This document shows, piece by piece, positions 37,346-42,296 of a stretch of DNA of 42,632 bases. The DNA lies in assembly GCA_013151775.1 (NCBI GenBank), contig JAADHO010000052.1:1-42632 (forward strand), given 5' to 3'. The position numbers and the translations under genes are program-made. Numbering within the stretch: position 1 is the first letter of the stretch; each line of letters begins with the position of its first letter. Source of the DNA: Deltaproteobacteria bacterium. GTDB taxonomy: Bacteria; Myxococcota_A; Polyangia; Polyangiales; Houyiibacteriaceae. The notes beneath the pieces were generated by a model. The model saw only the letters and a program-made list of their open reading frames with translations. It had not been told where the DNA came from and did no database searches.

Positions 37346-39211
37346 TCAGCTCGGATCCGCGGACTCCATCTGTTTGAGGCGGCGCCAGAGCGTGGTGCGG
37401 CCGATGCCGAGCAGCTTTGCGGCGGCGGCGCGTCGGTACTTGGTCTGTTCGAGGGCGCGCCGGATCTCGTCATCCGTGGGCCAGCGTGACGCGAGGGTCG
37501 CGGCGGGCGCTGTGGGGACGCTGAGCGCGGGCGCTGTGGGGACGCTGAGCGCGGGCGCTGTGGCTGGCTCGGGTCGCTCGGCCGGGACGTCTTCGGGACC
37601 GCCCGCGTGGTCACGCCCGGCAGTCGCCCCCACGACCTCCGCGGGTAGATCCTCGCGATGGATCGTCTGCCCCTCGCACACGGCGTTGGCGTACTCGAGG
37701 GCGTTCTCGAGCTGACGTACGTTGCCGGGCCAGTCGTGGGAGAGCAGGGCGCGCATGGCCGGTGGCGAGAGCCTGAGCGAGCGCCCGCGGCGTTGCCCGA
37801 TGCGCTCGAGCAGCTCGGCGATCAACAGCTCCACATCCTCGCGTCGCGCGCGCAGAGGCGGCAACCAGATGGGCACCACGTCGAGGCGATAGTAGAGGTC
37901 CTCGCGGAAGCGGCCTTGGGCCACGCGCTCGAGCAGGTCGTGGTTCGTCGCAGCCACCACGCGCGCCTCGAAGCGACGGGTCTTGGTCTCGCCCACGCGC
38001 TCGAAGACGCGCTCCTGCAGCACGCGCAAGAGCTTCACCTGCAGTGGCAGGGGCATGTCGCCGATCTCGTCGAGCAAGATGGTGCCGCGCCCCACCACCT
38101 CGAAGCGCCCGAGCTTGTCGCGGATGGCGCCCGTGAACGCGCCCCGCGCGTGTCCGAAGAGCTCGCTCTCCAGCAGATCCGCCGGCAGCGCGCCGCAGTT
38201 CACGGCGGCGAAGCTCTCGTTGGCACGCGACGACCGGGCGTGAACGGCACGCGCCACCAGCTCCTTGCCGGTCCCGCTCTCGCCCGTGATCAACACGCTC
38301 GCGTCGCTGTCGTGCAGGTGCTCGATCAATTCGAAGATGCGGCGCATGCGCGGCGAGCGCGCGACCATGCCCTCGAAGCGCATGGCTCCGTCCTCCGCCC
38401 CGGCCTCGGTGGGCGTCTCGGGGCGCAGCACCACCAACACATGGGGCGAGCGTCCCGGCGCCGGCGCGCAGTCCGCCTCGATGAGATAGGGCGCCGCCGT
38501 GACAGACACCGCCCGATCCTCGCCCGCCACGTCGCGCAAGATCGCGCGCCAGCCCTCGCGTCGCTCACCCGCCTCGAGCGCCGCGCGGAAGTGACTGCCT
38601 TCACCGAAGAGCTCCTCGCCCAGATGCTCACTCGCGTTCTCCCCGGCCAGATCGTCCACGCCTCGACCCACCAGCTCGGCGAAGGCGGTGGAGGCGCGAC
38701 GGATGATCATGTCCGCGTCGAGCAGGAGGTGAGCGCGCCCGAGCGCCCCGAGCATGCGCTCCATGCCCGTCCAAGCGTCCACGCGCGTCTCACCCTCTCT
38801 CAGCTCGTGGAAACGCTCCACGGCGCCGAACACCACTCCCTGCGCGTTGCGCAGCACGCTAGCCGTCTTGACGATGCGCGTCTCCTGCCCGTCCGCGCGG
38901 AAGAGATCCAGCGGCACGTGGTCGATGCGACCCCGCTCGAAGACTCCACACGAGGCCAGGCAGCTCGCACACTTGATGCCCGCTAGACAGTGACGCCCGA
39001 GCACCTCGGCGCGCTCGAAGCCCGTGATCCGCTCCGCTGCGGCATTGAAGATCAAGAGCGTGCGCTCCCGGTCCACCACGATCAGCCCCTCGTCCATGCT
39101 GTCCGCCACCGCCTCGAGCAACGCGAGCTCGCCGCCCACAGACGTCGCCATCTGTCGGAGCTGCGCTCTCGCTTGGGCCCGCCTCAGCTCGCCGCCGTGC
39201 TCTCTCTCCAT
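37346..39211 (-). CDS. Sigma-54-dependent activator with two PAS domains
   Basis: 621 residues from the ATG at 39211; a GTG at 39244 would add 11 residues and overlap an activator-type palindrome. PAS 1 (about 30-130) carries HCLAGIKCASCLASCGVF, a Cys-rich segment often found in sensors of redox or metal/sulfur signals. A second PAS-like domain lies at about 150-250. The AAA+ domain (about 275-500) has GESGTGKE, GAFTGA (the sigma-54 contact loop) and a Walker B DEIGDM. A Pro/Ala-rich linker with a short repeat precedes a Fis-type helix-turn-helix (RRAAAAKLLGIGRTTLWRRL). Divergent from the sulfide-oxidation operon, which has a sigma-54 promoter, so it probably activates it. Confidence 0.88.
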   Translation of the reverse strand: MEREHGGELRRAQARAQLRQMATSVGGELALLEAVADSMDEGLIVVDRERTLLIFNAAAERITGFERAEVLGRHCLAGIKCASCLASCGVFERGRIDHVPLDLFRADGQETRIVKTASVLRNAQGVVFGAVERFHELREGETRVDAWTGMERMLGALGRAHLLLDADMIIRRASTAFAELVGRGVDDLAGENASEHLGEELFGEGSHFRAALEAGERREGWRAILRDVAGEDRAVSVTAAPYLIEADCAPAPGRSPHVLVVLRPETPTEAGAEDGAMRFEGMVARSPRMRRIFELIEHLHDSDASVLITGESGTGKELVARAVHARSSRANESFAAVNCGALPADLLESELFGHARGAFTGAIRDKLGRFEVVGRGTILLDEIGDMPLPLQVKLLRVLQERVFERVGETKTRRFEARVVAATNHDLLERVAQGRFREDLYYRLDVVPIWLPPLRARREDVELLIAELLERIGQRRGRSLRLSPPAMRALLSHDWPGNVRQLENALEYANAVCEGQTIHREDLPAEVVGATAGRDHAGGPEDVPAERPEPATAPALSVPTAPALSVPTAPAATLASRWPTDDEIRRALEQTKYRRAAAAKLLGIGRTTLWRRLKQMESADPS

Positions 39212-39232: not shown

Positions 39233-39308
39233 CAAACGTTCCACAAGGGGGCCACGAAACGTTTCGACACGTTTCGCTCCGTTCCATTACGAACGAACGA
39301 AACGTTCC
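39233..39308. promoter_or_regulatory. Repeated GAAACGTTYC sites (candidate activator sites)
   Basis: CAAACGTTCC (39233-39242), GAAACGTTTC (39256-39265, inside a perfect 12-bp palindrome CGAAACGTTTCG at 39255-39266), a half site ACACGTTTCG just after it, and GAAACGTTCC (39299-39308). The spacings of 23 and 43 bases are close to two and four helical turns. They lie 51-126 bases before the -24 element of the SQR operon and just upstream of the activator's own start, so self-regulation is possible. Confidence 0.62.
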
Positions 39309-39358
39309 GCTCATGGCGCCGTCTCGGAAATATGCCTGTAATCATAGGGTTTTATACT

Positions 39359-39374
39359 TGGCCCAGGCTTTGCG
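39359..39374 (+). promoter_or_regulatory. Sigma-54 promoter of the sulfide-oxidation operon
   Basis: TGGCCCAGGCTTTGCG matches TGGCACG-N4-TTGCW apart from two positions, with exact GG/GC spacing. Ends 40 bases before the GTG at 39415. Confidence 0.74.
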
Positions 39375-39414: not shown

Positions 39415-40650
39415 GTGAAGAAGCTCTTGATCCTGGGCGCCGGTACTGCCGGAACGATGATGGCCAACAAGCTGCGGCGCAGGCTCGACCCCGTGGAGTG
39501 GGAGATCACCATCGTGGATCCCGACCCCATCCACTACTACCAACCCGGCTTCCTCTTCGTGCCCTTCGGCGTGTACGAGAGCCACGAGCTGAAGCGCCCG
39601 AAGACCGAGTTTTTGCCCGCCGGCGTGACGCTGCGCGCCGAGACGGTCGAGGTGGTGGAGCCCGACAAGAAGCGCGTGAAGCTTCAGGGACGCACGGAGT
39701 ACCTTCACTACGACGTGCTGATCGTCGCCACGGGCACCCAGATTCAACCCGGCGAGACCGAGGGCTTGCTCGGCGAGGGCTGGCGCAAGGACATCTTCGA
39801 CTTCTACTCCTTCGACGGCTCCGCGGCGCTGCGCAAGAAGCTGCAACACTTCGAGGGCGGGCGCGTGGTGCTCAACGTCGCCGAGATGCCCATCAAGTGT
39901 CCCGTGGCGCCCCTCGAGTTCCTCTTCCTCGCGGACTACTACTTCCACACGCAGGGCATCCGCGACAAGGTCGAGCTCGTCTACGCCACGCCCCTCGACG
40001 CCGCCTTCACCAAGCCGCGCGCGGCGGAGCTGCTCGGCGGTCTACTCGAGCAGAAGGGCGTGAAGGTCGTCCCCGATTTCAACCTCTCCGAGGTGAAGGC
40101 GGGCGAGAAGAAGATCGCCTCCTACGACGGCAAGGAGCTCGACTACGACCTCTTCGTCTCCATCCCCGTGAACATGGGCGACGCTCTGTGGGAGCGCTCG
40201 GGACTCGGCGACGAGCTGAACTACGTAGCGACCGACAAGCACACGCTCGCCGCCAAGCAGATGAAGGACGTCTTCGTGCTCGGTGACGCCACCGACCTGC
40301 CCAGCTCCAAGGCGGGTTCCGTCGCCCACTTCGAGGCCGAGGTGCTGACCGAGAACGTGCTGCGTCAGATCGAAGGTCAGGCGTTGCTGCCCGACTTCGA
40401 CGGACACGCCAACTGCTTCATCGAGTCGGGCTTCGGCAAGGGCCTATTGATCGACTTCAACTACACGACGGAGCCGCTGCCCGGGAAGTTCCCGCTGCCT
40501 GGCGTCGGTCCCTTCTCGCTCTTGGCCGAGAGCAAGATGAACCACTGGGGCAAGATGATGTTCCGCTACGTCTACTGGAATCAGCTGATCCGTGGCGTGG
40601 AGCTGCCCCTCGAGGCGCAGATGGTGATGGCCGGAAAGCAGGCGGCGTGA
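39415..40650 (+). CDS. sqr: Sulfide:quinone oxidoreductase-like flavoprotein
   Basis: 411 residues. GTG start with GAGGAG about 6 bases upstream. FAD/NAD-binding family: LLILGAGTAGTMMANKLRR (4-22) binds FAD ADP, VLIVATGTQ and DVFVLGDATDLPSSKAG are the second nucleotide motif. Two Cys typical of SQR, C162 in IKCPVAP and C334 in HANCFIES, are present; a third is not obvious. SQR oxidises sulfide at the membrane and passes electrons to quinone. The tail after residue 350 is amphipathic and Phe/Leu-rich, as membrane-associating SQR ends are. First gene of a four-gene operon; its stop overlaps the next start. Confidence 0.84.
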   Translation: MKKLLILGAGTAGTMMANKLRRRLDPVEWEITIVDPDPIHYYQPGFLFVPFGVYESHELKRPKTEFLPAGVTLRAETVEVVEPDKKRVKLQGRTEYLHYDVLIVATGTQIQPGETEGLLGEGWRKDIFDFYSFDGSAALRKKLQHFEGGRVVLNVAEMPIKCPVAPLEFLFLADYYFHTQGIRDKVELVYATPLDAAFTKPRAAELLGGLLEQKGVKVVPDFNLSEVKAGEKKIASYDGKELDYDLFVSIPVNMGDALWERSGLGDELNYVATDKHTLAAKQMKDVFVLGDATDLPSSKAGSVAHFEAEVLTENVLRQIEGQALLPDFDGHANCFIESGFGKGLLIDFNYTTEPLPGKFPLPGVGPFSLLAESKMNHWGKMMFRYVYWNQLIRGVELPLEAQMVMAGKQAA

Positions 40651-41414
40651 TGGCCGCCGCGACCCAAATGGCGGTCCCACCCGTGCGCCGGATGAGCACC
40701 CCACAGGGTGAGCGCATGGACGCCATGGATGCCAAGCTCGACATGCTCCTCGAGCAGGTGACGCATCTGAATCGACGTGCGATCGCCATGGAGGAGTTGG
40801 GAAGCGAAGGCGCGCGCATCGCCAAGGACGCCATGCTGGTGGTGCAGGACGAGCTGAGCCAAGTGGAGGATCAGTTCAACACCGAACAGCTCGCCCTGCT
40901 CACGCGTAAGCTGCTACGCAGCACGCCGCGCCTGGTCACGCTGCTCGACACGCTCGAGAGCGTCGACAGCCTGGTGACGGAGGCTGGGCCCTTGGGCAAA
41001 GAGGTGCTCGGAGACCTGGTGGAGCATCTTCAGCTGGCCGAGGAGCGTGGCTACTTCCGTCTGATCCGAGGCGGCATGGACCTCGTGGATCGGGTCGCCA
41101 CGCACTACACGCAAGAGGACATCGACAAGCTCTCGGACAACATCGTCTTCATCCTCGACACGGTGAAGCGCATGACGCAGCCCGAGATCCTCGGCAGCGT
41201 GAATCAGGCCTTCGAGGTGCTCGACCGTCCCGGAGACGAGGTACAGCCCGTGGGCCTCTGGGGGCTGCTGCGCGCCATGCGTGACCCCGAAGTACAGAAT
41301 GGTGTCGGGCTGATGATCGCGGTTCTACGTCAAGTGTCACGCGGGCCCAATGGCGCCGCCACGAATCCAACTGAAACACCAAATCAAAGCGTCGCTGAAG
41401 ACGCAAAGGAGTGA
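40650..41414 (+). CDS. DUF1641 protein, SQR-operon partner
   Basis: 254 residues from the ATG at 40650, which shares one base with the SQR stop (TGATG). Mostly helical, no signal peptide. The segment RLVTLLDTLESVDSLVTEAGPLGKEVL and EILGSVNQAFEVLDRPGDEVQPVGLWGLLRAMRDPEVQNGVGLMIAVLR (in part) match DUF1641, a family found beside SQR and related oxidoreductases. Role unknown; it may help quinone or electron transfer, or assembly. Confidence 0.82.
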   Translation: MAAATQMAVPPVRRMSTPQGERMDAMDAKLDMLLEQVTHLNRRAIAMEELGSEGARIAKDAMLVVQDELSQVEDQFNTEQLALLTRKLLRSTPRLVTLLDTLESVDSLVTEAGPLGKEVLGDLVEHLQLAEERGYFRLIRGGMDLVDRVATHYTQEDIDKLSDNIVFILDTVKRMTQPEILGSVNQAFEVLDRPGDEVQPVGLWGLLRAMRDPEVQNGVGLMIAVLRQVSRGPNGAATNPTETPNQSVAEDAKE

Positions 41415-41416
41415 AC

Positions 41417-41731
41417 ATGCCGAGCATCGATGTCAACGGAACTCCCATCGAGGTCAACGCCGATGGCTTCCTCGTCAATCCAGACGATTGGAACGAGTCC
41501 GCCGCCGGAATCCTAGCCGCGCAGGCGGGGATCAGCCTGACGCCACGTCATTGGGACGTGATCAACTTCTGCCGCAAGGACTTCACCGCGACAGGAAAAT
41601 CCCCCGGCGTGCGCCGTATCACCAAGGTCGGTGGCGTACCCACCAAGGAGATGTACGCGCTCTTCCCCGGCGGCCCCGGAAAGCTCGCCGCGAAGCTGTC
41701 AGGACTCGAGAAGCCCAAGGGCTGTCTCTAA
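41417..41731 (+). CDS. tusE: TusE/DsrC-family sulfur-carrier protein
   Basis: 104 residues from ATG 41417 with AAGGAG 5 bases upstream; a GTG at 41411 overlaps the DUF1641 stop. DsrC/TusE fold: VNADGFLVNPDDWNE and PGVRRITKVGG. The tail ends KPKGCL, the conserved penultimate Cys that carries a persulfide. The second Cys of true DsrC, ten residues upstream, is replaced by Ala/Lys, so this is the single-Cys TusE-like type. A cysteine in NFCRKDF is not the usual partner. Likely sulfur carrier for persulfide from SQR. Confidence 0.82.
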   Translation: MPSIDVNGTPIEVNADGFLVNPDDWNESAAGILAAQAGISLTPRHWDVINFCRKDFTATGKSPGVRRITKVGGVPTKEMYALFPGGPGKLAAKLSGLEKPKGCL

Positions 41732-41768: not shown

Positions 41769-42296
41769 ATGGCAACGCTAGCGACCGAGCAAAACGCACC
41801 CGCCCCGCCCATCCCTCAGCCCGAGCCAGAGCTCGAGCCGATCAAGAAGGTGTCGATCATCTGCTCCAAGGGCAGCCTCGACATGGCCTATCCGGGGCTG
41901 ATCCTCGCGAACGCCGCGCGCATGTCCGGCATCGAGGTCACCCTCTTCTTCACTTTCTGGGGGATGGATATCGTCACCAAGAAGAAGCTAGATCACCTCG
42001 CCGTGTCACCCGTAGGCAACCCGAGCATGGGCATGCCAACCTTCCTCGGAGGTCTCCCGGGCATGCAAGCCATGGCGAGCCACATGATGAAGAAGAAGAT
42101 GGACGAGCTCGACATCCCGCCCGTGAGCGAGATGATCGAGACCCTCGCCGACTCGGGTGCCGAGATCTACGCCTGTCGCCTCGCCGCCGACATGATGGGC
42201 CTGACCGAGGAAGACCTAGTGCCGCAGGTGAAGGAGATCATCAGCGCCATGGATTTCTTCGACCATAGTAAGGGCGCCAACATCATCTTCATCTGA
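41769..42296 (+). CDS. DsrE2-like sulfur-carrier/sulfurtransferase protein
   Basis: 175 residues from ATG 41769 with CAGGAG 7 bases upstream. After a Pro/Glu linker comes KKVSIICSKGSLDMAYPGLILANAARMSGIEVTLFFTFWGMDIV, a DsrE/DsrF/DrsH-like fold (shown in part), and YACRLAADMMGL with a conserved Cys. It matches the DsrE2 type, which works with TusA/rhodanese/SQR in passing sulfane sulfur to cytoplasmic oxidation. Last gene of the operon (38 bases after tusE). Confidence 0.85.
   Translation: MATLATEQNAPAPPIPQPEPELEPIKKVSIICSKGSLDMAYPGLILANAARMSGIEVTLFFTFWGMDIVTKKKLDHLAVSPVGNPSMGMPTFLGGLPGMQAMASHMMKKKMDELDIPPVSEMIETLADSGAEIYACRLAADMMGLTEEDLVPQVKEIISAMDFFDHSKGANIIFI

Follow-up and report, generated by a model that had tools for sequence, protein, structure and literature searches.

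We propose, at a probability of about 0.85, that a sigma-54 activator turns on the adjacent operon for sulfide:quinone oxidoreductase (SQR), DUF1641, DsrC and DsrE2 by DNA looping from sites at 39233-39308, in response to a sulfur or redox signal. The window (the whole stretch of DNA that was analysed, 42,632 nt) comes from a genome of 6.05 Mb, and the features concerned are presented in Table 1. The sequence itself shows how the genes are arranged, where the sites and the promoter element lie, that these are conserved with the activator's clade and that sulfur genes adjoin it. From this we infer that the activator binds the sites, activates through a loop and regulates its own gene, and also what signal it senses. 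In detail, a one-component activator would bind the array, situated ~70-135 bp before the -12 element, and would contact RNA polymerase-sigma54 at 39359-39374 through the loop, and the contacted polymerase would then switch on the four-gene operon. Sulfide, sulfane sulfur or a linked redox change would be the cue for the PAS domains, and site 1 may in addition restrain the activator's own gene. Since relatives keep this arrangement beside sulfide-oxidising or sulfur-reducing genes, the region probably serves as a local sulfur-chemistry switch of the same general kind as the FisR system.

Table 1 Coordinates of the activator gene, the intergenic sites and the SQR operon in the window.
Feature	Position	Strand	Remarks
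Sigma-54 activator, PAS(Cys4)-PAS-AAA+-Fis-type HTH, 621 aa	37346..39211	-	ATG 39211
First PAS, Cys75/Cys81/Cys84/Cys88 (C-x5-C-x2-C-x3-C)	38795..39211	-	PAS folds are the top PDB matches
Site 1, CAAACGTTCC	39233..39242	+	Closest to activator start; possible autoregulation
Site 2, GAAACGTTTC	39256..39265	+	Perfect palindrome
Degenerate site, GACACGTTTC	39266..39275	+	Single good half-site
Site 3, GAAACGTTCC	39299..39308	+	
AT-richer stretch, enhancers to promoter	39309..39358	+	54% AT vs 33% in the window
-24/-12 element, TGGCCCAGGCTTTGCG	39359..39374	+	GG 39360-39361, GC 39372-39373; similar ones upstream of SQR in relatives
Type III sulfide:quinone oxidoreductase, selenoprotein-subtype family, Cys here	39415..40650	+	NF049943, 635 bits (cut-off 525)
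DUF1641 protein	40647..41414	+	PF07849, 7e-14
DsrC/TusE-like sulfur carrier	41411..41731	+	PF04358, 3e-31; TIGR03342
DsrE2-like sulfur carrier	41769..42296	+	PF13686, 4e-38; NF047629, 112 bits (under cut-off of 210)

The activator has the features of a sigma-54 enhancer-binding protein, namely an AAA+ domain with the Walker A motif GESGTGKE and the GAFTGA loop in its translation, and a C-terminal Fis-type HTH (Pfam matches PF00989/PF13426, PF08448, PF00158 at 1.8e-67, PF25601 and PF02954 HTH_8). Its whole-protein structure model was poor (mean pLDDT 71, pTM 0.42). By eye, the linker that precedes the HTH contains APALSVPT repeats, encoded by a near-perfect ~23-bp repeat at 37500-37565. The SQR scored over the cut-off of its family model and carried the two conserved cysteines of type III enzymes, Cys162 and Cys334, which were invariant in 13 aligned sequences. 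Beyond the operon, a gaggcgtcgacgtgcg-like unit was seen by eye to be repeated in tandem at the contig end (42510-42632).

The sequence-only reading had described three near-identical palindromes and a half site between the two genes, spaced by about two and four helical turns and lying close to the activator's own start. All of this was borne out: the palindromes were found at 39233, 39256 and 39299 with the half site at 39266, the measured steps were 23 and 43 bp, and the start of site 1 lies 22 nt from the likely ATG, on its upstream side. Measured from the -12 GC, the four site centres are ~135, 112, 102 and 69 bp upstream. Together with GCCAC at 39251, site 2 can also be read as a pair of half-sites with a 5-bp spacer (GCCACGAAACGTTTC). 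Across the whole window, the GAAACGTTYC pattern at up to two mismatches was not enriched (33 matches vs 38.7 expected), so only the clustering and the conservation of the sites count as evidence. At up to one mismatch there were five positions, four of them inside the 76 bp at 39233-39308 and the fifth at 38810, within the activator gene.

A genome-wide scan for GAAACGTTYC near sigma-54 promoters, which had been suggested as a check, singled out the window's combination, but it returned no further paired place linked to a promoter element of at least 19. Exact matches occurred at six places in the genome, two being the sites described here, 43 bp apart; GAAACGTTTC had a single occurrence, at 39256. 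None of the four remaining places had a -24/-12 element of at least 19 downstream of paired sites, the weaker cases being an element of 18.5 at +101 (L006) and one of 19.0 on the opposite side at -224 (L003). Exact GMAAC-N5-GTTKC was found at five places, fewer than the reversed control pattern (10), and GMAACGTTKC at four. With these patterns no wider regulon emerged from the genome, the window alone combining paired sites with a -24/-12 element of at least 19 downstream of them. Given that no second place combined sites and promoter, the system looks like a single-target local switch at the pattern strictness used, which looser sites could escape.

The promoter had been predicted to lie before the SQR operon and to end at 39374, which is correct as the GC falls at 39372-39373. 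With its GG-N10-GC core, its agreement with the -24/-12 consensus at a gene start and its conservation, TGGCCCAGGCTTTGCG is a predicted sigma-54 promoter. By itself it is weak evidence, because such strings are not rare in this GC-rich window (eight of at least 19, both strands). Upstream of type III SQR genes, elements of at least 19 occurred within 120 bp at 9 of 24 loci, the window counted, compared with 0.9% of random 120-mers from the same loci (L010, at a contig start, was left out). The AT-richer stretch between sites and promoter is a possible bend or IHF region. On the activator side, the position of site 1 makes autoregulation of the activator gene plausible; an alternative activator start, GTG 39244, would overlap this site. 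The activator start in L199 is also crowded by GTTTC/GAAAC elements, and L200, whose activator gene is not divergently placed, has GTTGTAAC/GTTGCAAC elements at the activator start.

We searched 377 genomes of the phylum with the activator, and 20 matched at E<=1e-95, the window's own genome included. For the clade set, an acidobacterial locus (L190) was added, and G317 (L213), which fell outside, was used as the outgroup. In a FastTree phylogeny, 20 activators formed one clade (support 0.99) that contained 0/29 paralogues from the window's own genome. Within it, a subclade of six (support 0.86) comprised the window, L199, L200, L201, L202 and L203, and two PAS domains were present in all five subclade members with a readable N-terminus (L202 is cut there).

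The visible neighbours of the clade were linked to sulfur or cytochromes throughout. An SQR operon stood beside the activator in 6/20 members (window, L199, L200, L202, L110, L190). In 9/20 (L201, L203, L205, L206, L207, L208, L211, L214, L215; L211 only up to PsrA) the activator adjoined an operon for a multihaem cytochrome, a PsrA/PhsA-like molybdopterin oxidoreductase, an Fe-S protein, NrfD and a YeeE-type transporter, as annotated with Pfam on L201 and L205. The cytochrome gene alone was seen at the contig end in two more (L209, L212), and the downstream side was cut off in three (L204, L210, L216). Thus, all 17 visible targets were either type III SQR (6) or multihaem-cytochrome/polysulfide-reductase-like (11) operons. 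With 9/20 members beside a reductase-type operon, the signal need not be sulfide.

The sites followed the clade. Upstream regions were readable in 16 of the 20 members (L204, L209, L212 and L216 end with the contig), and in 14 of these 16 a half-site pair with spacer 0 or spacer 5 (one mismatch or none) preceded a -24/-12 element; L199 and L200 showed spacings of 3 and 4 instead, and had neither spacer 0 nor spacer 5 at this stringency. In ten loci, inverted GMAAC/GTTKC pairs at up to one mismatch occurred 17 times with spacer 5 (0.23 expected) and nine times with spacer 0 (0.38 expected), figures that lean high because the half-site letters were picked by eye from the same ten loci. Fairer tests gave the following. 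Exact GAAAC half-sites numbered 22 in the nine upstream regions other than the window's (shuffle mean 4.1, maximum 9), and GAAACGTTYC at up to one mismatch was present in 5/9 (mean of 0.21 and maximum of 2 in shuffles). Five regions picked by gene adjacency alone contained eight half-sites compared with a mean of 2.3, and 0/500 shuffles scored as high. At six held-out loci (five placed by their PsrA start and L210 noticed through its sites; L206-L208 are close relatives), a spacer-5 site lay within 160 bp upstream of the -24/-12 element in 6/6 (shuffle mean 0.225, maximum 3, 1000 shuffles), and a spacer-0 site in 0/6.

A matrix built from 27 sites added positions beyond the search pattern, T at -8 (72%) and R at -2 (96%) with their mirror images, and the predicted main site of the clade is TGMAAC-R-N3-Y-GTTKCA. 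A 26-site matrix from which the window was omitted ranked position 39250 second, 39255 11th and 39265 12th of 42,616 window positions, with site 3 (39293) 38th and site 1 (39227) 57th; of the window's 17 strongest half-sites, four fell in the stretch of these sites. The original proposal of GAAACGTTYC as the enhancer through which the adjacent activator acts on SQR is therefore supported by comparison as to the place and the pairing of the sites, but needs amending as to their form: the usual clade site has spacer 5, and the window's palindrome is a contracted version. The window sites are mostly spacer 0, and only site 2 can be read as G-N13-C, the geometry expected for a dimer of Fis-type HTHs (Fis, NtrC). 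Because the recognition helix reads GRTTLWRRLK in the window and mostly SRTTLWR(K/R)(M/L)(K/R) in other clade members, the DNA specificity of the window activator may have shifted. Alternatively, the contracted sites may be bound by overlapping dimers that use one good half-site each.

As to the signal, Cys75, Cys81, Cys84 and Cys88 were invariant in 12/12 aligned first-PAS domains. Seven of these domains come from non-clade activators, and two of the seven activators (L096, 5236-6621; L098, 5399-6640) adjoin DsbD-thioredoxin genes. A further activator outside the clade, not in the cysteine alignment, adjoins a molybdopterin/Fe-S/NrfD operon (L099, 3019-6966), and these three neighbourhoods hint at a broader thiol/sulfur theme. 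Searching with the PAS region gave no match in the named genomes and three distant PAS proteins among plasmids. Modelled alone with AlphaFold2, the first PAS reached a mean pLDDT of 89.8, with 72 for residues 81-90 near the Cys loop. In a second group within the clade the second PAS is the only one and the Cys4 motif is missing, yet the neighbour operons are the same; the motif may therefore modulate a signal or contribute one, instead of being the sole sulfur sensor. The Cys-rich PAS had been put forward as a sulfide/redox sensor, and this remains only plausible: the invariance of the four cysteines speaks for it, whereas the origin of 7/12 domains outside the clade and the operons shared with members lacking this PAS speak against.

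The same data bear on a serious though somewhat doubtful alternative, in which the operon is indeed under the activator's control while the cue is something other than sulfur species, such as oxygen or redox through a flavin or Fe-S cluster, or the quinone state. Comparison of the first-PAS model with the PDB returned PAS/LOV domains, flavin- and haem-PAS structures being among the best matches, and the four cysteines could hold an Fe-S cluster or zinc. The clade members beside reductase-type operons, and those that keep their neighbours without a Cys4 PAS, fit this view as well. Set against it, every visible clade target is a sulfur- or cytochrome-linked operon, and FisR provides a precedent for the sensing of sulfane sulfur.

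A sigma-54 activator encoded far away in this genome could be the one that uses the sites, with the neighbouring activator regulating something else, but we consider this improbable. The genome does offer candidates (a search with the activator gave 40 matches at E<=1e-20, the activator itself counted), and many SQR operons of this class have a -24/-12 element, some of them without an adjoining clade member. However, half-sites and activator clade co-occur in 14/16 readable loci, one of them acidobacterial, and none of the 29 paralogues groups with the clade. A LacI/GalR-type (Cra/RbsR-like) repressor unrelated to the activator might instead use the GAAACGTTTC palindromes as operators, but this is hardly credible and largely refuted. 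Although the string coincides with the core used by E. coli Cra-type regulators, and the papers containing it include one on Cra, this assembly has no LacI-family HTH (PF00356: 0 matches in the genome and none over the cut-off in nine genomes, with 9/14 control genomes matching) and the sites track the activator clade.

Control of SQR by an adjacent sigma-54 activator is a lineage trait and not a general one, as a search of the named genomes with the SQR alignment gave 80 loci and a whole activator lay upstream of SQR in L190 and L191 only (L191 has the same sequence as L199). Other activator traces among the 80 were a fragment at L180 and matches to the PAS alone at L162 and L173. Separately, a CGCA-N5-TGCG palindrome, with spacer 5 only, was found within 260 bp upstream of SQR at 12 of 24 other loci (L008, L009, L014, L016, L017, L019, L020, L021, L022, L024, L026, L028; L010, at a contig start, was left out and L168 added) compared with 0.61 expected from shuffles. 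Several precede good -24/-12 elements, which suggests a second enhancer type whose activator is encoded elsewhere than beside the operon. By eye, L008 and L011 have a short ArsR-like regulator gene just upstream of SQR, apparently in the place of the sigma-54 system.

In the literature searched, which lay mostly outside subscription journals, we found no account of this activator clade or of its site in this role, and no described sulfide regulon for the phylum. It is quite possible, and we suggest tentatively, that this is an undescribed, mainly Myxococcota clade of sigma-54 activators in which one code, TGMAAC-R-N3-Y-GTTKCA, serves opposite arms of sulfur redox, sulfide oxidation or polysulfide/thiosulfate-type reduction depending on lineage, and in which the C-x5-C-x2-C-x3-C PAS is a new sulfur/thiol-redox sensor distinct from those of FisR, CstR and SqrR. 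The outcome is a predicted DNA code and an orthologous set of loci for sigma-54 control of sulfur redox. Two questions can now be put to a direct test: does the Cys4 PAS sense sulfane sulfur or thiols, and how does a Fis-type dimer read 5-bp-spaced and contracted palindromes alike?

Among known enhancer sites, that of NtrC-type activators is TGCACY-N5-RGTGCA. The clade sites resemble it in having inverted half-sites with a 5-bp spacer and G/C at -7/+7, several of them upstream of a -24/-12 element; they differ in the half-site itself (TGMAAC, not TGCACY), and those of the window are mostly spacer 0.

The closest functional parallel is FisR of Cupriavidus pinatubonensis JMP134, reportedly described by Li et al. 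in 2017. It is a Fis-type sigma-54 activator of sulfide-oxidising genes that senses sulfane sulfur through cysteines (PMC9774590, PMC12170894, PMC9495516), with three conserved cysteines and a tetrasulfide link between Cys53 and Cys64, 11 residues apart (PMC9774590, PMC9495516). Here, too, a sigma-54 activator adjoins an sqr operon with a -24/-12 promoter. In contrast to Cupriavidus FisR, the cysteines of the first PAS follow each other in steps of 6, 3 and 4, with no pair 11 residues apart, and the operon combines a type III SQR with DUF1641, DsrC and DsrE2. Given the different cysteine spacing, we regard the predicted activator as resembling FisR in function without assigning it to FisR by descent. 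FisR of Acinetobacter baumannii is required for sulfide induction, is divergent from a PDO1-SQR operon with a predicted sigma-54 promoter and is without the regulatory cysteines of Cupriavidus; the terms 'inverted repeat', 'UAS' and 'binding site' are all absent from the main text (PMC7315123). The window shares with that system a regulator gene that diverges from an SQR operon preceded by a predicted sigma-54 promoter. Finally, SqrR, BigR and CstR are described as persulfide-sensing proteins that control sulfide-oxidation genes by cysteine chemistry (PMC7315123, PMC12170894), but these are repressors, whereas the regulator in the window is a predicted sigma-54 activator.
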